Source: a virus
Length of the DNA: 33,610 bases
Strand: one strand, 5' to 3'
Virus record (IMG/VR): IMGVR_UViG_3300022602_000270
Coordinates: 1-33,610 of that record
The position numbers and the translations under genes were made by a program. The notes under the pieces are model-generated. The model was not told where the DNA came from, did no database searches, and saw nothing but the letters and a program-made list of their open reading frames with translations. Below, one piece after another: positions 2,653 through 15,731 of this stretch (positions are counted from its first letter, which is position 1; each line of letters opens with the position of its first letter).

Positions 2653-3078
2653 TTAAGAGTTGATCTGTGACGGAATCCCGACACCGTAACCCAAAGTCGT
2701 TTCGTATATTGGGAGGCCCGTTGCCGGAGCCTTAAATAGTTGAAGCTCACAGCGAACATGAGCTGTAGAAGGAAACCGATTTCTGACGCTAGGGATTGCC
2801 ATGATGCGCCAGTATTCGCCTTCGGCAGGTATGGCAATTATTCGCCCACTTCGAAGCATGGGTGCGAACTTGACATTGAAGTAGCCAGTTGCAGATAAGG
2901 TCGGATCTCTTCCGCTTGCCAGCGCATCGTCTTTACTTTCTCGAGTGCCTCTATGGATGTTGCAATGCATCTTCGAAGCACCTTGGACTGGCGCAACTTG
3001 GCTTGGAATGAGATTAAGGTTCGAGTCAATATTGTTCGTGGGCTCGAATAAGGCGCCAAACTCTCTGAATACCGGCAT
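2653..3078 (-). CDS. 141-aa probable head closure/stopper-like protein
   Basis: The start overlaps the stop of the upstream connector gene (TGATG), so the two are coupled. The segment with AEGEYWRIMAIPSVRNRF followed by AHVRCELQLF suggests the small beta-barrel of head-closure (stopper) proteins, which usually follow the gp6-like adaptor. This rests mainly on gene order. The C-terminus, GYGVGIPSQINS, repeats the GxGxPS motif of the 686-aa protein nearby; one copy there also reads PSQINS. The fold is not certain. Confidence 0.65.
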   Translation of the reverse strand: MPVFREFGALFEPTNNIDSNLNLIPSQVAPVQGASKMHCNIHRGTRESKDDALASGRDPTLSATGYFNVKFAPMLRSGRIIAIPAEGEYWRIMAIPSVRNRFPSTAHVRCELQLFKAPATGLPIYETTLGYGVGIPSQINS

Positions 3079-4286: not shown

Positions 4287-5711
4287 CTAGACCGGAGTCA
4301 GGCCAGTGGAGATTGCGAAGACCGTTGCACCCTTCATTCGGGGAACGGAGTACACGGAAACAATGCCCGGGTACTTCTGGGGCGAGGTGGCCGCTGGTGC
4401 AACTTCCTGCGCGACGTAGCCCTGAATGTTCACGTTCGGAGCAAGTTCAGGCAGCTGAACCTGTGGGAGAACACGAACGTCCATGGCGACCTTACCGTCA
4501 GCGAGGTAGTCGCTTCCGAAGATCATGGTGCCGGCAGGAACAAAGCGGGAAACCAGGATCGGAACGATCTCACCCGTGATTGGGTGCTTATAGCCGGTGA
4601 CCTTCAAGCCGAGCGGGGCATCGGCATCAGCCGTTGCCATTACGCGGATGATAGTTCCAGATCCCTCAGCCAAGTGGACCAGTGAAAGAGCTTCCTGACC
4701 ATTGACGAGGATATATTGACCGTTACCGCCCTGATTAAAGACCCTGGTCAACTGAGAGTCAATGTGGGCAGTGGTGAGGGCGCCCACGTTCACTTGAACA
4801 TGCGCAGCCGGAGTTCCGTTCGCAGTCGAGATGAGCTTAATCATGCCGTCATAGGCGAGAGCGTTGGTGCCGTCGCCAAACGGAGCAGTCACGATGGTGG
4901 AGTCAGCGTTAATGAGCGCATTCTCTTCCATCAACATCAGACGTCGAATGGCCGCAGTCTTTTCCAGGGCGAGCTGATTGTCGAATGAAGCGCCAGCAGC
5001 CATAGCAAGCCCAGTGATGCTGAACATCGTGCCCAAGAGCTTGTAGGTCGCTGTCTTCTTAGCGTAGGTTGGGGACACGTCTGACGGTGCTCCAGACTCA
5101 CTAAAGAATGCTTGCGCGCTTGGATCCTGGCCTGGCTGGACGAATGGGCCAGCGCTGACTGACTCACCAGTGGTCGTTGAAATCGTGGAAGTCAACACGA
5201 CTGTGGTCGAGTTGGTCACGCTCTGCACGGTTCGGTAAGCATTCGTGACAGCAAAGTACAGGGAAGTACCAGCCTGCATACCACGGGTGTCGCCAACCGT
5301 TTGAGTGGCCGAAGAAGCTCCCAAGGTAACAGTGGTCTTGACACCGTAGCCGCCGCCAAGGCTTGTTTCCTGTTCCCAAGTCGATGCTGAGCCTGAACCC
5401 ACGCTACGAGGCAGTCGATTGCGGAGAGGCGTTTGAACTGGGATCAGAGAGGAAACTTCGGCTTCCAGGTCTTCGCGGACTGGAACGCCAGCGAGATTCT
5501 GGGCACGAAGAACGCCTTCCATCATTGCCATGTTGAGTTCATACATGGCCTGCTGTGGATCTACTCCACCGAAGTCTCCGCGCTGGATGCGATCAAACTT
5601 CTCTCTGACGTCAGACGTGATCGATCGCGAAAATACTGATCGCGAAATAGGGACGATACCGAGGCCGGATTCCCCGAGGCCGGGGTCCATGAAGCCGCTG
5701 TTTGGAAACAT
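4287..5711 (-). CDS. Major capsid protein (HK97-type) with an inserted domain
   Basis: The 474-aa protein follows the protease-scaffold gene and precedes connector genes, the canonical place for the capsid protein. The acidic, helical N-terminus (residues 30-90) fits a delta-like region. SLIPVQTPLRNRLP (residues 88-101) is typical of capsid proteins that assemble through an N-arm. Residues about 126-188 are a Thr/Ser/Val-rich domain of about 63 residues that is 60% identical to part of the gene at 6956-7507. Later parts (KLLGTMFSITGLAM; EENALINAD; GYKHPITGEIVPILVSRF) look like the HK97 A and P domains. A good Shine-Dalgarno (AGGAG) precedes the ATG, and a strong terminator follows. The HK97 fold is inferred, not proven. 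Confidence 0.85.
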   Translation of the reverse strand: MFPNSGFMDPGLGESGLGIVPISRSVFSRSITSDVREKFDRIQRGDFGGVDPQQAMYELNMAMMEGVLRAQNLAGVPVREDLEAEVSSLIPVQTPLRNRLPRSVGSGSASTWEQETSLGGGYGVKTTVTLGASSATQTVGDTRGMQAGTSLYFAVTNAYRTVQSVTNSTTVVLTSTISTTTGESVSAGPFVQPGQDPSAQAFFSESGAPSDVSPTYAKKTATYKLLGTMFSITGLAMAAGASFDNQLALEKTAAIRRLMLMEENALINADSTIVTAPFGDGTNALAYDGMIKLISTANGTPAAHVQVNVGALTTAHIDSQLTRVFNQGGNGQYILVNGQEALSLVHLAEGSGTIIRVMATADADAPLGLKVTGYKHPITGEIVPILVSRFVPAGTMIFGSDYLADGKVAMDVRVLPQVQLPELAPNVNIQGYVAQEVAPAATSPQKYPGIVSVYSVPRMKGATVFAISTGLTPV

Positions 5712-5720
5712 TGTGATCTC

Positions 5721-6929
5721 CTATTGGTCGTGCGCGAGCGTGGCGATCTCGCGCTTGAGTTGAGTGATGCGACCTACACGTCGCAGTCCCTCGGCTTCGT
5801 CGGCTGTTGGCTGCATTCGCTGAATTTCGGCGAGTTCTGCCTTCAACTCCGTTAGCTTCTCGTTCGAGGGTTTTGCGTCACCGAGCGTCCGTTCTACACC
5901 CTCAAATCTTCGGGTAACGGGAGCCGGGTTTCGCGGCATGTTATTCAGGCGAGTGATTTCAGCATTTGCGGCTTCATGGAGCCCTTGCACTCTCTGGAGT
6001 TCACTTGCTTGTTCATCGCGCTCACGAGTTAGCGCTGAAATTGTCTCTTGTGATCTCGTGATCTCGAGCTCAAGTTTTTGTGCTCTCGCGATCACTGATT
6101 CTTCATCTGCCGTAAGGAATCGGCTTTCCTTATTGACAAGGATTTCCCCGATTCTTGAAGCGGCATCAGCTAGTTCGGCGCGGGATAGCGTAGGCAAACC
6201 TTCACCGCGATCGACTTCGTCTTCATCGGCCGGGATCTCTGGAATCTTGCCCGTGGCGATGGCGCCTACAATGAATTCTGTGAATTCGGCGCAAGTCTGT
6301 CTAATAGCAGCTTCTTTCTCTTCGGGCGAGAGTTCAGCTTGGCCCCAGCCCCATTGGATGTCATAAAGAGAATTCCACAGGTAATCGAGGGCCATGTCCC
6401 GCAGTTGGGACGGCGCACAGTCCGCAAGATAGTCTGAGAATGACGCTCTCTCGAGGACTTCAACTTCGACTTCGGTTTCCGGATCCACTTCACCCGATCG
6501 CCACATAGTGATCAGGGCATCTCGATCTTTGCCGCGATCGACAAGGGAAGTGTCCCACCATTCGCACGCAGTGACTTGGTTGCCTCGCATTACCTTTGGT
6601 GTGACTCCGACACTGAAGCCACGGTAAACGCCCTCTTGGACCTTCTTCCATGCCTGGTCATCGACAACCTTCATGCGTAGAAAGGCGCCCTTTTCGTCCC
6701 AGACGACGTCGATTGGCTTTCCAGCTGCACTGGGCTGGTGGATCTCTCGGCAGGTTCCGTTGGCAAGGTAGTCAGCGGTTGCTGACTCCATAGCCGACCG
6801 GGTCAAACGAATCCCGCCTTCGCCGGGTACGACTTCGTTTACAAAAGCGTAGCCTTCGACAATGCGCTCTTCGTTATCAATGCGCGAAATCTCGCTATAG
6901 AGCAAGAACGGCTTGAGTTTTCTTTTCAT
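5721..6929 (-). CDS. Prohead protease (XkdF-like) fused to a coiled-coil scaffold
   Basis: Residues 1-145 look like the XkdF/prohead serine protease group: GYAFVNEVVPGEGG, then REIHQPSA (His64), then YRGFSVGV (Ser106), then WWDTSLVDRG (possible acidic member Asp126 or Asp131). Residues about 265-402 are rich in Glu, Leu, Arg and Gln with heptad-like spacing (LELEITRSQETISALTRERD) and should form a coiled coil, as in scaffolds. It is immediately upstream of the capsid gene. The inferred role is head assembly on the coiled-coil part, followed by self- and capsid cleavage. The length (402) fits a protease plus scaffold fusion. Confidence 0.8.
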   Translation of the reverse strand: MKRKLKPFLLYSEISRIDNEERIVEGYAFVNEVVPGEGGIRLTRSAMESATADYLANGTCREIHQPSAAGKPIDVVWDEKGAFLRMKVVDDQAWKKVQEGVYRGFSVGVTPKVMRGNQVTACEWWDTSLVDRGKDRDALITMWRSGEVDPETEVEVEVLERASFSDYLADCAPSQLRDMALDYLWNSLYDIQWGWGQAELSPEEKEAAIRQTCAEFTEFIVGAIATGKIPEIPADEDEVDRGEGLPTLSRAELADAASRIGEILVNKESRFLTADEESVIARAQKLELEITRSQETISALTRERDEQASELQRVQGLHEAANAEITRLNNMPRNPAPVTRRFEGVERTLGDAKPSNEKLTELKAELAEIQRMQPTADEAEGLRRVGRITQLKREIATLAHDQ

Positions 6930-6955: not shown

Positions 6956-7507
6956 TTAGGCTCGGCTTTGGACCGAGAGCGAAAGAGTTGCGTCAGGCGT
7001 GTTCTTCACCGTGACTGCTTCTGTAGTCGTGGAGTTGATTGCCTGAGTTAGCACGACGTGGGTGCTATCCGTTACCGACTGGATGGTTCTGTCCGCATTG
7101 GCAGTGGCAAAGTGGAGAACATCACCCGCGACCATGCCGGCCGTACTACCAAGAACCTGGGTTGCCGAATTTGCACCTGTCGTAACAGTGGTTGCTATGT
7201 TTGTTCCCGTGAATGCCCATCGCACTCGAGCCAAGTCTGTCAGGGCTTGATTCGTAGCTTGGCCGGATCCGATTGTCGTGGAAAGACTTCCAGAAGCACT
7301 CAAGGCAGTTGGAGACCAGATCGGATACCAATTCCCATCTGCACCTTGACGCTCGAAGAAGATTGCGATTGTGGGCGTATTGCCCCGCAGGCGTGAGACA
7401 TTGACGTCGACGGCTAAGTAACTGAACTTGTCGGTCTTGAATGCCGAAGTCTGGCCATTGCTACTGTAGTTGACGGATTCTAGTGCGATGCAGGTGTATT
7501 GGTTCAT
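6956..7507 (-). CDS. 183-aa beta-rich virion protein carrying the capsid-like inserted domain
   Basis: Residues 1-100 are clearly paralogous to the neighbouring 112-aa protein (shared SNGQ, DxNVS, GxDGNY/W, W-S-x-T/A-L, GSLSxxIGxG and W at the end). Residues about 106-168 are a domain 60% identical (38 of 63, counted by eye) to residues 126-188 of the major capsid protein. A short tail (DATLSLSV) resumes the paralog's last strand, so the domain is an insertion. A GTG at 7537 would add 10 residues, but it lies inside a terminator stem. ATG 7507 aligns with the paralog's start and is chosen, although it has no clear Shine-Dalgarno. A decoration or head-fibre role is inferred from location. Confidence 0.75.
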   Translation of the reverse strand: MNQYTCIALESVNYSSNGQTSAFKTDKFSYLAVDVNVSRLRGNTPTIAIFFERQGADGNWYPIWSPTALSASGSLSTTIGSGQATNQALTDLARVRWAFTGTNIATTVTTGANSATQVLGSTAGMVAGDVLHFATANADRTIQSVTDSTHVVLTQAINSTTTEAVTVKNTPDATLSLSVQSRA

Positions 7508-7521
7508 GATCGTTTGGGTTA

Positions 7522-7560
7522 GCAAAGAAAAGGCCACCTAACCAAATTGGGTAAGCGGCC
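7522..7560 (-). terminator. Intrinsic terminator between two paralogous virion genes
   Basis: On the minus strand GGCCGCTTACCC and GGTTAGGTGGCC pair around a 5-base loop, with two G-U pairs and one mismatch. TTTTCTTTG follows immediately. It lies 17 bases after the stop of the 112-aa gene. It places a transcription stop inside the head operon, before the protein carrying the capsid-like domain. Confidence 0.8.
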
Positions 7561-7577: not shown

Positions 7578-7916
7578 CTACTTTCCGTTGGCTGATGCAG
7601 AGAAGGTAACGCTGGCTCCTGAGCCAGCAAGAGTCCAAGACAGTTGCCCGATCATTCCGGGCTCCTTATTCACTTCGAGTCCGTGCCCGATATTTGCGGA
7701 GAGCGATCCCGTGTTTCCAAGCGTTCCGGACCACACTTGGAAGTAATTACCGTCGTGGCCCTTGCGACTGTAAGTAAAGGTCACGGAGCCTGTGATTGCA
7801 CTCACATTGATATCCAAGTGCACGCGATCAACTGCAGACGTGGGGAAGTCTTCAGATTGACCGTTTGAGTTCTTTGTGGCGCTTGCCAACAGGAGAAGAG
7901 ACTGTGAATTAGGCAT
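7578..7916 (-). CDS. 112-aa beta-rich virion protein, paralog of 6956-7507
   Basis: The protein has the pattern SNGQSEDF, HLDINVSAITGSVTFTYSRK, GHDGNYFQVWSGTLG, TGSLSANIGHG and QLSWTLAGS, all matched in the next gene. It is wholly beta-like, with no membrane segment or signal peptide. It starts on the last base of the portal gene's TAA (TAATG), so it is coupled to portal translation, and it ends at a terminator. Such small proteins beside portal and protease are often decoration or head-associated proteins, but no named family is claimed. Confidence 0.7.
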   Translation of the reverse strand: MPNSQSLLLLASATKNSNGQSEDFPTSAVDRVHLDINVSAITGSVTFTYSRKGHDGNYFQVWSGTLGNTGSLSANIGHGLEVNKEPGMIGQLSWTLAGSGASVTFSASANGK

Positions 7917-10219
7917 TAGATTATTCCGTCCGCAGGGTCATAGAACGAAGTCGAACCCGATTTGGCGACAACGTAGCAGCGACAATTCTTGCGACATTGG
8001 GTTTGGCAGAGACCGGGAAGGGTCGGGATTGTTTCAGGAGTGTATGGAGAGTTAGAGGCCAACTCCTCGCAGTCGCCGCACTCGCTTTCGTCTTCGGTAT
8101 CAACCCAATCGAGCTCGTCATCCTTCTCAAGTGAATTCGCCCAGGCTTGGTTAGCGGTTCCAACCAGACGCCTTGCGAATCCTTCGACTCTCTGTCTGAT
8201 CTGGGCTTCGGACAAGCCGCCCTGAATATCTCCAGCGAGTTTCTCAAGGTAAATCAGTTGGGACTTCGCAGACTTGATTCCAAGCTCGATGTCTGCTGCA
8301 GAGGCAACCTTTGTATCTCCTGACAAGGTTGCTCTGACTCTCCCAAGTGTTGCCGCTTGCGTGTGCAGGGGCTCAAGAGCTTCGACAACGTTTTGGGCGA
8401 AACCGGTGATTCCGACTTGACCGTTTTGAAGATCGGCGACGGTGACCTCGAAGGCTGACGGCACTTCTCCCATAACTGACAGCAGGAGCGGGATCAAACG
8501 CTTTCGTTTACGATCATCCTCCGCGTCATCATCGCCTTCGTCTTCGGTTGCTGCACGGAAAACCGATTGCACGTCCGCAATAGACATGGCATCAGCAAGG
8601 CCAGTGGCAATCCTGAATGCCTTTTCTCGGCTGATGGTGGCACTTTCAAAAGTGCACTTAGCTGGTCGACCATCCTTGACTCGTCTGATGGACTTCCGTA
8701 GCCACCGGTTAAGGTCTTCGGCATCATCCGCAGGTGCTTGCGATTTGGGATCGCTTGCATCTGGAGCAATGTCAGGCTCTTGCTGAGCAAAATCAAGAGT
8801 GATAGTGCCGTTCGGAACAAGAATTACGTCTCCGCCTGCAATCGGATCTTCACCCGCGAGCTTTCTAGCATCGTTAACGGTTCGGAACCCGAAACCTCCG
8901 GTTGAGGTTACGAGCCGGGAATCTCGTTCGCTGTTGGTTTCTTCAGCTGCCTTTGGTTTTCTAACCTCAAGATCATGGTAACCGAGATCCTGGAGGAGAT
9001 CGTCGTAGTGCTCATTTCGAAGGTCTAGCAGAGTGCTGGCCCCGAACTGAGTTGTCGAGTTCATTGATTCCTCTTGACTGACTTTGTACTGCTCTCCCGC
9101 GAATCCGATTGAAGCCGGAGAGACGCCCATGATCGAACAAGTTCGACGGAGTAACCACAGCATGAACTCCTGAAAGTCTTGATCCTTTCGTGTAGCTGCT
9201 CTCGACTCCTTGACGCCTGTTGGGACAAATATGGCTGACTGGCGCTTAGCCAGGTCACCGATCATGAGCATGTTGAAGTACTCACTGTATTCCCGGATCA
9301 TCGATGGGGTCCAGGTTTCCGGAGTGTTGAACATTTGCCCGGGCGTGTTACCTTCCGTAAGCCAGACTCGGTTCCATTCATCGGCCTTGAGTGCAGACAA
9401 TACAGTCGCAATTAGGTATTCGACAGGGGAGTCGAAGTAAGGCGAATCTGTTCGAGGATATAAGCCATCGTAAGTGAGTTCATCGGGCAAGAACTCCGTG
9501 ATCTTCATCCCGAGGATCCATTGTTCAAACCAGTTCTCTCCTGGTCCTGGCCAGCCATAAGCATCCATGCGCGGGCGGATGGTGGCACTGTCAATGAGGA
9601 TGGAATTCAGGAGATCGCCAGCAAGGGTTCTCTTTTTCCATGCGGCAAATGCACCAATGACAAGAGTGTCCTCAACGAGCATGGACTCATAGTGGCGACG
9701 GGTTTGGTTGATCTCGCCGAGGCCTCCACGTTTGCCGAAGAAGTACGTGGCTTCCTTGACGCGCTTCATCATGGCTGCACTGGCGTCGTTTTCGTCCTTT
9801 GGACCAATAACAAATGGTTGAGCGTGGAGCTCAGTCTTGAGATGGTTTATACAGGACCTCAAGACGTCGTAATTCTTAGCAAACTGTCTGAGCGTGTCCG
9901 TACTGAGGATCGTGTTTGGTCTACGCTTGGGAGTATTTGGAGTCGCATAGAATAGCGGTTGATCATAGCCGTAGAGCGGTCTCGGACTGCCTTGGACCTG
10001 GGGATAGCTGAACGGAACCTGAGCTGTTAACTGGTAGCCGCTCTTTCCACCTGCGTTGCCATCATTGCCAAACATCTGCCTGGCCAATTCCATGGCCATC
10101 TTTTCACGGGCTCTCTGCTCGATTTTGGGTGCTTCTTCTGCTAGTCTGCTCTCGATAGCCGCTGGAAGGCGCGAAGCCATCTGGCGCTCAAAGTAGGCAG
10201 AGACAATTGGTATCTTCAT
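7916..10219 (-). CDS. Portal protein fused to a MuF-like C-terminal domain
   Basis: The 767-aa product starts 4 bases inside the terminase end (ATGA). Residues about 100-490 have portal hallmarks: DTLRQFAKNYDVLRSCINHLK near the N-terminus, LIDSATIRPRMDAYGWPGPGE, the long helix region with LAKRQSAIFVPTG, and SIMGVSPASIGFAGEQYKVSQEE. Residues about 560-700 are helical (VVEALEPLHTQAATLGRVRAT). Residues 705-767 carry WVDTEDESECGDCEEL, SPYTPETIP and six Cys (714, 717, 738, 742, 746, 748), which matches the Cys-rich end of MuF/minor head proteins (PF04233). The portal forms the DNA entry ring; the MuF part is probably internal. Confidence 0.85.
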   Translation of the reverse strand: MKIPIVSAYFERQMASRLPAAIESRLAEEAPKIEQRAREKMAMELARQMFGNDGNAGGKSGYQLTAQVPFSYPQVQGSPRPLYGYDQPLFYATPNTPKRRPNTILSTDTLRQFAKNYDVLRSCINHLKTELHAQPFVIGPKDENDASAAMMKRVKEATYFFGKRGGLGEINQTRRHYESMLVEDTLVIGAFAAWKKRTLAGDLLNSILIDSATIRPRMDAYGWPGPGENWFEQWILGMKITEFLPDELTYDGLYPRTDSPYFDSPVEYLIATVLSALKADEWNRVWLTEGNTPGQMFNTPETWTPSMIREYSEYFNMLMIGDLAKRQSAIFVPTGVKESRAATRKDQDFQEFMLWLLRRTCSIMGVSPASIGFAGEQYKVSQEESMNSTTQFGASTLLDLRNEHYDDLLQDLGYHDLEVRKPKAAEETNSERDSRLVTSTGGFGFRTVNDARKLAGEDPIAGGDVILVPNGTITLDFAQQEPDIAPDASDPKSQAPADDAEDLNRWLRKSIRRVKDGRPAKCTFESATISREKAFRIATGLADAMSIADVQSVFRAATEDEGDDDAEDDRKRKRLIPLLLSVMGEVPSAFEVTVADLQNGQVGITGFAQNVVEALEPLHTQAATLGRVRATLSGDTKVASAADIELGIKSAKSQLIYLEKLAGDIQGGLSEAQIRQRVEGFARRLVGTANQAWANSLEKDDELDWVDTEDESECGDCEELASNSPYTPETIPTLPGLCQTQCRKNCRCYVVAKSGSTSFYDPADGII

Positions 10220-12904: not shown

Positions 12905-13504
12905 TTAATTTGGTGAGTTGTCTTGGCTACCAAGTTCCTGCGGTTGCGTTTGAACTGCCTCGCCATTTCGCTGGAGCATGGTCTCATGCTCGACGTTCAA
13001 AATCGTGATGGCTTCGTGAGCAAGCGCCCGATTCATGGCTATGCTGGCCTCATTGTTCTGGCCATGTTTGCCGTCTCCAAGCCCTTCGCCGTCTTTACTC
13101 CAGTTGGTGCTTCCGGAGAGAACGAAAAGACCATCGACGACAACCATCTTCAGATGGTTTATGAGTCCATTGGCACTTGTGCCCACGACAACCCGTGTTG
13201 TCGGGCAGGCTTTCAACTGCGCAACCAATGGTGACTCCGCGGAACCTGCGGCCTGGGTCTTATCCAAGTTCACTTGTACGAAGATGTTGGGGTCCTTGGC
13301 CTTGTTCAGAATTTCAGCCGTAAGCTCCGGGTCATCCTCTCCGTACATAGAAACGTAAAGGCTCTGAGCCGTGCCCGCGATCAGGAATTTGAATGCGTCA
13401 TGGACGCTGTCAAACGGGGAATATAGCCTGATCACCGAATCAATCGGATAATCGCAAGGGACAGCCTTTGCCGCTTTGAATTGAACGAAATCTTGAAGTG
13501 TCAT
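12905..13504 (-). CDS. Phospholipase D-family nuclease-like protein (single HKD motif)
   Basis: HLKMVVVDGLFVLSGSTNWS (His117, Lys119, Asp124, Gly131, Ser132, Asn134) is a full HxKx4Dx6GSxN motif. The 199-aa product with one motif resembles Nuc-type endonucleases, which act as dimers. No signal peptide is visible, so it is probably cytoplasmic or packaged. The ATG at 13504 is chosen; TTG at 13513 would add MNA. No good Shine-Dalgarno is seen. The gene is bounded by terminators on both sides, typical of a moron expressed apart from the late operon. Candidate substrates are host or competitor DNA. Confidence 0.8.
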   Translation of the reverse strand: MTLQDFVQFKAAKAVPCDYPIDSVIRLYSPFDSVHDAFKFLIAGTAQSLYVSMYGEDDPELTAEILNKAKDPNIFVQVNLDKTQAAGSAESPLVAQLKACPTTRVVVGTSANGLINHLKMVVVDGLFVLSGSTNWSKDGEGLGDGKHGQNNEASIAMNRALAHEAITILNVEHETMLQRNGEAVQTQPQELGSQDNSPN

Positions 13505-13511
13505 GGCGTTC

Positions 13512-13549
13512 AAAAAGTGGCCAGCCTCGAGGAATCGTTCAGGCTGGCC
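13512..13549 (-). terminator. Intrinsic terminator upstream of the PLD gene
   Basis: Perfect 9-base arms GGCCAGCCT (13519-13527) and AGGCTGGCC (13541-13549) with a 13-base loop. On the minus strand the stem is followed by ACTTTTTG. It ends transcription of the lysis cassette and short ORFs upstream. Confidence 0.85.
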
Positions 13550-14780: not shown

Positions 14781-14954
14781 CTAGTCGTTGCATCTAGGCG
14801 GTGGGGGCGGAGGCACATCACCGACTTGGTGCCGATGAATTTGGCTGAGGGATCCGGCCTTAACTTGCGGTTTAGCTGTCAACGCAGATCCCAGAAGGAA
14901 ACCGAACAGCAAGCCGCTGATCCAAACCAAAGGAAGACTGAAAATAACCGTCAT
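14781..14954 (-). CDS. 57-aa membrane protein with polyproline tail
   Basis: The ATG at 14954 overlaps the endolysin stop (ATGA) and is chosen over GTG 14963. The N-terminal helix (MTVIFSLPLVWISGLLFGFLLGSAL) is followed by a soluble part and a run of six Pro before RCND. A helix directly behind endolysin suggests a holin or an anchored lysis partner; a short proline-rich periplasmic tail also recalls spanin components. Undecided. Confidence 0.7.
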   Translation of the reverse strand: MTVIFSLPLVWISGLLFGFLLGSALTAKPQVKAGSLSQIHRHQVGDVPPPPPPRCND

Positions 14955-15550
14955 GGCATCCACAGGAAAGCAGTCGAAGTCGCGGTATCGGTATCGCAGT
15001 CAAGGCCAAGAATCTTGGTTTCGGCAAGCTGGATCATCGCGGGCTCCGCGTTACCATCTCTCCAGCCCTTGCTTAGAGACTGCCAGCCATCGTGAGCAAG
15101 TCCTTTGGCTTGAAGGTGCGCGATAACTGCTCGACTTCCGTAATCTCCTTCTAGCCATCCAACGGCCTTCATTCGCTTCTGCACGACGGCGAAGTAAGCA
15201 TCGATGCGGCCCTGATCGCCTGGCTGAGCATCATAGTCGACAGTGAAAGCGATCTCGACAGACTTCGGGACTCCGAGCCTGGTGAGGACAAGAATGGCTT
15301 CGGTGGCATCGGCACCAGCCCTGACCTCGTCGAAGTAATCAGCATTCGTTGGCAAGGTTTCCCAGACGAAACCGACAGCTACGCCATTGGCATGCAGTTC
15401 CTTGATCTCGGTTGGTGTTACCTGTTTGTTCCGGAAGTTCTGAGTATCTGGCGAAATGTAGCGGATTACGAAATCGTAGCCAGCGGCCTTGATAGCCTTG
15501 GCGTTGCCCAACACGGAGCACGGAGTATCAAATCCCTTGAGGTTAATCAT
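14951..15550 (-). CDS. Endolysin, DUF1906 glycoside-hydrolase-like
   Basis: Starting at ATG 15550 (AAAGGCGAG upstream) the 199-aa product begins MINLKGFDTPCSVLGNAKAI. KGFDTP, GYDFVIRYISPDT, ELHANGVAVGFVWET and EIAFTVDYDA follow the TIM-barrel pattern of DUF1906/Rv2525c-like domains used as phage lysins. Asp8, Glu64 and the DYD region are likely active-site residues. A longer start (15637) adds a poor Arg-rich N-terminus. No cell-wall-binding domain or signal peptide is visible, so release should depend on a holin. It heads the overlapping membrane-protein cassette. Confidence 0.85.
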   Translation of the reverse strand: MINLKGFDTPCSVLGNAKAIKAAGYDFVIRYISPDTQNFRNKQVTPTEIKELHANGVAVGFVWETLPTNADYFDEVRAGADATEAILVLTRLGVPKSVEIAFTVDYDAQPGDQGRIDAYFAVVQKRMKAVGWLEGDYGSRAVIAHLQAKGLAHDGWQSLSKGWRDGNAEPAMIQLAETKILGLDCDTDTATSTAFLWMP

Positions 15551-15731
15551 CTTGGACTCGCCTTTGCGGTCGGTACCGGTTTCCGGTTTGGTAGTCGAGC
15601 GATTCGCCACGGTCAGCCGCCGCCGTCTTCGGGCCATAGCACCAACTGATCCAGATGTCGTTCAGGTAGCGCTCCACGCGCTCGCTTTCGCTGACCTTCT
15701 CGGTGCCGGTGGGCGTACACGGTTGCCGCAT
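15543..15731 (-). CDS. 62-aa hypothetical ORF before the endolysin
   Basis: ATG 15731 to TAA 15543; the stop overlaps the endolysin start by 8 bases. The middle part looks protein-like (KVSESERVERYLNDIWISWC), the end is basic (RYRPQRRVQDD). No Shine-Dalgarno is seen, and the gene starts 24 bases after a terminator, so it would be first in its transcript. Other frames in the region are also open for 30-40 codons. Moderate to low support. Confidence 0.4.
   Translation of the reverse strand: MRQPCTPTGTEKVSESERVERYLNDIWISWCYGPKTAAADRGESLDYQTGNRYRPQRRVQDD

Follow-up and report, generated by a model that had tools for sequence, protein, structure and literature searches.

A predicted P22-type I-domain barrel inserted in the major capsid protein and in a second head-region protein of one phage

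The head gene cluster and its repeated segment

The stretch of DNA analysed here (the window; 33,610 bases) is the IMG/VR virus record IMGVR_UViG_3300022602_000270. Genes for an integrase and an S24-type repressor indicate a temperate tailed phage. The head genes lie on the minus strand in the order terminase, portal, p112, p183, protease and capsid. The portal protein (7916-10219; PF04860, 1.1e-10; phrog_2662, 1.1e-35) possesses a C-terminal extension. p112 (7578-7916), recognised by its alignment with p183 and by an orthologue in the related fragment L096, is an intact jelly-roll paralogue of p183. p183 itself (6956-7507) is modelled as a decoration-like jelly-roll protein (AF2 model, pLDDT 83.1; jelly-roll structural matches) and carries the second copy of the barrel described below. 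Its start is uncertain: the ATG used here gives 183 residues and a GTG at 7537, 10 codons upstream, would give 193. The head maturation protease (5721-6929; phrog_3017, 4.2e-6; phrog_21715, 1.2e-17) contains a long coiled region, and the cluster ends with a 474-residue major capsid protein of the SU10_MCP family (4287-5711; PF17236, 2.4e-14), for which the AF2 model gives an HK97 fold.

Several other minus-strand genes of the window were noted. A protein with a phospholipase-D-like domain (12905-13513; PF13091, 5.7e-7) is encoded near the terminase genes, and one with an Rv2525c-like glycoside-hydrolase domain (14951-15637; PF08924, 2.8e-24) is a likely lysin. A 147-residue protein (2189-2632) matches the podophage GP4 fiber I protein gp80 (PF23140, 1.4e-14). 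Ten G-x-G-x-P/A-S-like motifs are spaced out over residues 194-516 of a 686-residue protein (98-2158), and its 141-residue neighbour (2653-3078) has the same motif at the C-terminal end.

Comparison of the capsid protein with p183 reproduced the gap-free match on which the original prediction was founded: capsid residues 126 to 188 (5148-5336) and p183 residues 106 to 168 (7004-7192) carry the same amino acid at 38 of 63 positions, where the best 63-residue diagonal in 300 shuffles of p183 scored 18 (mean 14.1). BLASTP returned 39 identities over 66 residues (68.6 bits, 3e-18), and phmmer found the pair at 4e-14. In the DNA, 104 of 189 bases and 23 of 63 third codon positions are identical. 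Thus, the two copies are old and do not stem from a recent duplication, and the extent to which their protein sequences are still conserved indicates that selection acts on both.

Insertion sites and predicted fold

To place the segment within the capsid protein, related capsids were taken from IMG/VR and from named phages. The IMG/VR part comprised the best 80 of 137 confirmed loci, from a scan with capsid patterns lying outside the insert; L010 and L012 (candidate capsids outside the family) and L008 (the most distant) were left out of the locus scan. Removal of 12 duplicate or short sequences and of the window's own capsid from 83 ORFs left 70 for counting. The window capsid scores 53.9 bits against SU10_MCP, above the curated cut-off of 24.1, in an alignment that covers 324 capsid residues against 232 positions of the profile. 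Against an HMM of the 70 relatives, residues 121 to 202 fall between profile columns 82 and 89, a site that holds 4-7 residues in 70/70 of the related capsids (among the matches listed) and about 80 here. With the domain removed, the score against L014 (the best relative among the matches listed) rose from 48.8 to 63.4 bits.

A whole-length MAFFT alignment had suggested that all relatives possess the domain. This placement, in which the domain was set opposite a later insertion of the relatives, is an artefact, since the 70-relative profile and the domain-free query separate the two sites. After the spine helix, 126-167 residues are present in all 70 relatives (among the matches listed) against about a dozen here; a Pfam search of these segments from three relatives gave no match. 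The region is accordingly not a normal part of HK97-fold capsid homologues, the domain being absent from 70/70 wider relatives (among the matches listed). That it is peculiar to this capsid holds against these wider relatives but not against the close homologue in L096, which carries it in the E-loop (HMM, 7e-7).

The capsid model was computed from an alignment of 40 of 47 representative relatives, entered as N-part and C-part fragments; L042, L052 and L054 (poorly aligned or cut) and four others (for size) were left out. It is weak overall (mean pLDDT 60.5; about 67-84 in the domain). The strands of the domain (residues 125-187) are flanked by strands E110-118 and E214-233, with the spine helix (246-267) next, and HK97-fold capsids and encapsulins head the list of PDB matches (SPO1, Z 16.2; SU10, Z 15.0; HK97, Z 14.8). 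As judged from profile and model, the capsid protein is an HK97-fold protein with an I-domain-like beta-barrel inserted at the tip of the E-loop, at residues about 122-190 (core 126-188; 5142-5348, minus strand).

The corresponding insert of p183 occupies residues about 103-169 (core 106-168; 7001-7201, minus strand) and is delimited by its match to the P22 I-domain and by comparison with the L093 protein. p112 and p183 are identical at 36 of 112 positions (2e-18). p183 leaves the p112 fold only ahead of the last strand, which resumes after the insert; the barrel thereby splits the last jelly-roll hairpin, which is whole in p112 and its homologues. We found seven members of this scaffold family: p112, p183 and proteins of L093, L094, L096, L097 and L098 (L095, which repeats L093, and L003, which repeats the window, were not counted). 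An insert in the last hairpin occurs in one of the seven, p183, and the L093 hairpin is continuous at this point. The predicted discrete domain in both proteins, interrupting in p183 a fold that p112 retains intact, is therefore borne out.

The relationship between p112 and p183 is less straightforward. FastTree paired p112 with the L096 protein (0.97) and split p183 and the L093 protein from the rest (0.92). p183 is consequently no late duplicate of p112, and the paralogy originally proposed is not one of simple duplication. The p183 scaffold is a jelly-roll, with structural matches to XepA (Z 11.2), YomS (Z 9.5) and the BPP-1 cement protein (Z 9.3), the last of which (3.2 A over 108 residues) is tied with many unrelated jelly rolls. 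A major tail protein family (phrog_9522, 6.8e-7) aligns through its C-terminal part with the L093 protein, so that this jelly roll is one that tail proteins also have.

The fold of the segment itself is best seen in the p183 model (pLDDT about 83 overall, about 95 in the domain), which was computed from trimmed alignment rows, untrimmed ones having set the last scaffold strand on the insert. The domain comprises six strands (residues 105-167). Residues 103-170 superpose on the P22 coat I-domain 2m5s (Z 8.9, 1.3 A, 68 residues, 32% identity), and the domain also matches P22 coat 8i1v (Z 8.6), the Mystique tail tube (Z 10.5, 2.3 A, 69 residues) and the Chi tail tip (Z 9.3, 1.7 A, 66 residues). 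The structural matches listed include no Ig fold over the domain. Plain Foldseek of the whole p183 model against the PDB gave nothing below E 0.001, and the P22 match therefore rests on a second structural aligner.

Sequence comparison adds a weaker signal. Similarity to P22 is local, at a G-M-x-x-G-D turn. Of 2000 shuffles, 1 reached the score against P22 coat of the p183 copy, 75 that of the capsid copy and 418 that of the L096 copy. hhalign of the three copies with the P22 piece gave a probability of 33%, and E 4.6e-4 for the single pair. Sf6 coat showed no clear sequence match to the domain copies; when the PDB was searched with a profile built from all three, no chain came up at E up to 10, and PDB sequence searches with the domain returned nothing useful. 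Pfam gave no match to the domain, and PHROGs gave weak matches to unnamed families. The capsid copy is predicted to be a six-stranded barrel by homology with the p183 copy together with its own weaker model. Taking these results together, the shared segment is very probably a short (about 66-residue) six-stranded barrel of the P22 I-domain type, inserted in both proteins.

Occurrence, origin and possible role of the two copies

The nearest relative, the 7 kb fragment L096, encodes a portal protein, a 116-residue p112 orthologue (56 of 112 positions identical to p112, in the equivalent gene position), a protease and a 476-residue capsid protein that is 58% identical overall to that of the window. 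No p183-like gene lies between the L096 116-residue protein and protease genes, which are 2 bases apart; on the strength of this one fragment, p183 is not required wherever the capsid domain occurs. Between the two capsids, 254 of 409 core positions are identical but only 21 of 62 in the domain, which thus evolves faster than the shell.

Further afield, a distant copy of the barrel was detected beside the first collar match of an L005 tail-collar protein (L005:2-1933; E 1.6e-4 among 5862 ORFs). Searches of the phage collection by tblastn with the capsid, p183 and the domain (up to E 10) returned none, although the low-complexity filter may hide a Ser/Thr-rich domain. Pattern scans of genome contigs with the domain (66 stretches) and the capsid (146 stretches) yielded no confirmed relative, the short strict patterns making this weak evidence. 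The proposal that the domain is mobile nevertheless gains support from phage tail proteins and the A-domain of P22 coat, which share the barrel fold, and from the weak sequence match in the L005 collar protein. Judged by these matches, the domain appears to belong to a kind of barrel that recurs across several phage virion proteins. What looks unusual is that one phage should carry it in two genes of the head region; we found no published phage with one domain in both the major capsid protein and a decoration or tail protein, in a literature that mostly excluded subscription journals.

We infer that p183 is a virion component, and the order of the genes, with p183 between those for portal and protease, speaks for a putative location on the outer surface. 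By analogy with crAss001, P1 and P22, the capsid barrel would lie on the outer capsid surface and reinforce capsomer contacts, and p183 would act as a decoration protein docking at the capsid. On balance, we regard as somewhat probable this overall reading, in which an I-domain barrel of the major capsid protein and its copy in p183 serve capsid reinforcement and p183 docking. The manner of docking is less assured: the p183 barrel could possibly pack against the capsid barrel, or replace it, at a local symmetry site.

A different account, which we consider possible but rather doubtful, treats the barrels as generic exposed modules captured independently by the capsid protein and p183, each with its own role in stability or at the surface and with no contact between the copies. 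The wide distribution of the fold (P22 coat, Mystique tail tube, Chi tail tip, L005 tail-collar protein) fits independent capture, as does the p183 scaffold having a history different from that of p112. The identities among the copies, however, favour copying inside the lineage: the p183 domain has its nearest counterpart in the capsid of the same genome (38/62, with 25/62 to the L096 capsid), the two capsid domains sharing 21/62. The disagreement between p183 scaffold history and domain affinity likewise suggests that the domain was copied from one gene to the other within this lineage. The domain tree (bootstrap 32-56) gives no direction of copying. Moreover, none of the 70 related capsids (among the matches listed) has a second copy of its own, different accessory domain in its locus (phmmer E up to 0.01; IMG/VR loci reached <=6 kb to either side of the match, and in many cases less), so double use of an accessory domain is not routine, which also speaks against generic capture. 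Probably, the p183 copy derived from the capsid copy, or both from one shared source, after the split from L096.

The original prediction envisaged instead that both copies perhaps bind the same target; on this account, the two barrels would be adhesion modules at the surface, directed at one receptor or glycan. The divergence of the domain relative to the core between the window and L096 accords with such a role, as exposed binding surfaces may change fast, and an adhesive role is suspected for some Ig-like capsid proteins, according to the available part of one source (PMC7602432). However, the domain has no Pfam match and only weak matches to unnamed PHROG families, and the fold matches over it are to structural components of the capsid or tail. 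The precedents suggest instead that such domains reinforce the capsid and dock subunits, so we judge a shared host target improbable and regard this part of the prediction as unsupported. Least probable is that the domain mainly aids capsid folding or assembly, as the available text on the P22 I-domain, with its folding-stability and assembly role (PMC5701804), might suggest, and that the p183 copy is a functionless by-product of recombination, for the conservation of both old copies argues that each is under selection.

Returning to the reading that we favour, of reinforcement and docking, a bolder extension may be offered tentatively: p183 might be a natural hybrid of a capsid insertion domain and a jelly-roll auxiliary protein, docking by homotypic barrel-barrel contact and reflecting an exchange of parts between the two kinds of protein.

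Comparison with known insertion domains and auxiliary proteins

The P22 coat I-domain and the p183 domain have a barrel fold in common. The P22 domain is about 120 residues long with D- and S-loops, whereas the barrel here has 66-68 residues and lacks both loops. In the alignment of 68 residues on P22 225-345, the gaps fall in stretches of P22 that we take to be these loops. The settings also differ, the P22 barrel sitting in the A-domain sheet of the coat protein and those described here in the capsid E-loop and in the jelly-roll hairpin of p183. P22 I-domains meet across the two-fold, as given in the available part of PMC5701804.

A parallel for the E-loop site is the crAss001 major capsid protein gp32, which, from the accessible portion of PMC10172136, bears a P22-like I-domain in the E-loop, in a three-fold assembly with an auxiliary protein. 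The gp32 domain (residues 79-180, about 102 residues) is longer than the barrel here, and the auxiliary protein gp36 is described in that portion as having PH and FliD-like domains and no barrel copy, unlike p183 (PMC10172136). The capsid proteins of T4, P1, N4 and phiKZ resemble this one, by description, in bearing an extra domain on the HK97 fold. The insertion domain of T4 has a different fold (PMC10172136, same portion), and that of P1 reinforces capsomer contacts (PMC12810830, in part). In phi29, gp8.5 trimers contact the BIG2 insertion domain of the coat protein (PMC7602432, in part).

Among auxiliary proteins, Bbp16 of BPP-1 (PDB 3j4u) and XepA/YomS possess a jelly-roll scaffold as in p183; their descriptions, as far as available, mention no I-domain barrel in the hairpin. 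The available part of PMC3863775 describes the BPP-1 shell as reinforced by a dimer of the jelly-roll cement protein. Insertion domains and separate auxiliary proteins have been presented as alternative means of reinforcing HK97-fold capsids, with a shared origin hypothesised, and a link between the P22 I-domain and the auxiliary proteins of BPP-1 and epsilon15 has been proposed as a hypothesis (PMC5701804, in the part available).

P22-type barrels on phage capsids, including one in an E-loop (crAss001), were thus known already; what the present models would add is a second copy in a decoration-like protein. One genome here holds one barrel in both kinds of protein, with an intact jelly-roll paralogue adjacent and a relative, L096, possessing the capsid copy only. 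Domain exchange and homotypic docking can thereby be put to the test on just two small proteins and a single capsid and, if the hybrid reading is true, p183 shows how capsid insertion domains and auxiliary proteins exchange parts.
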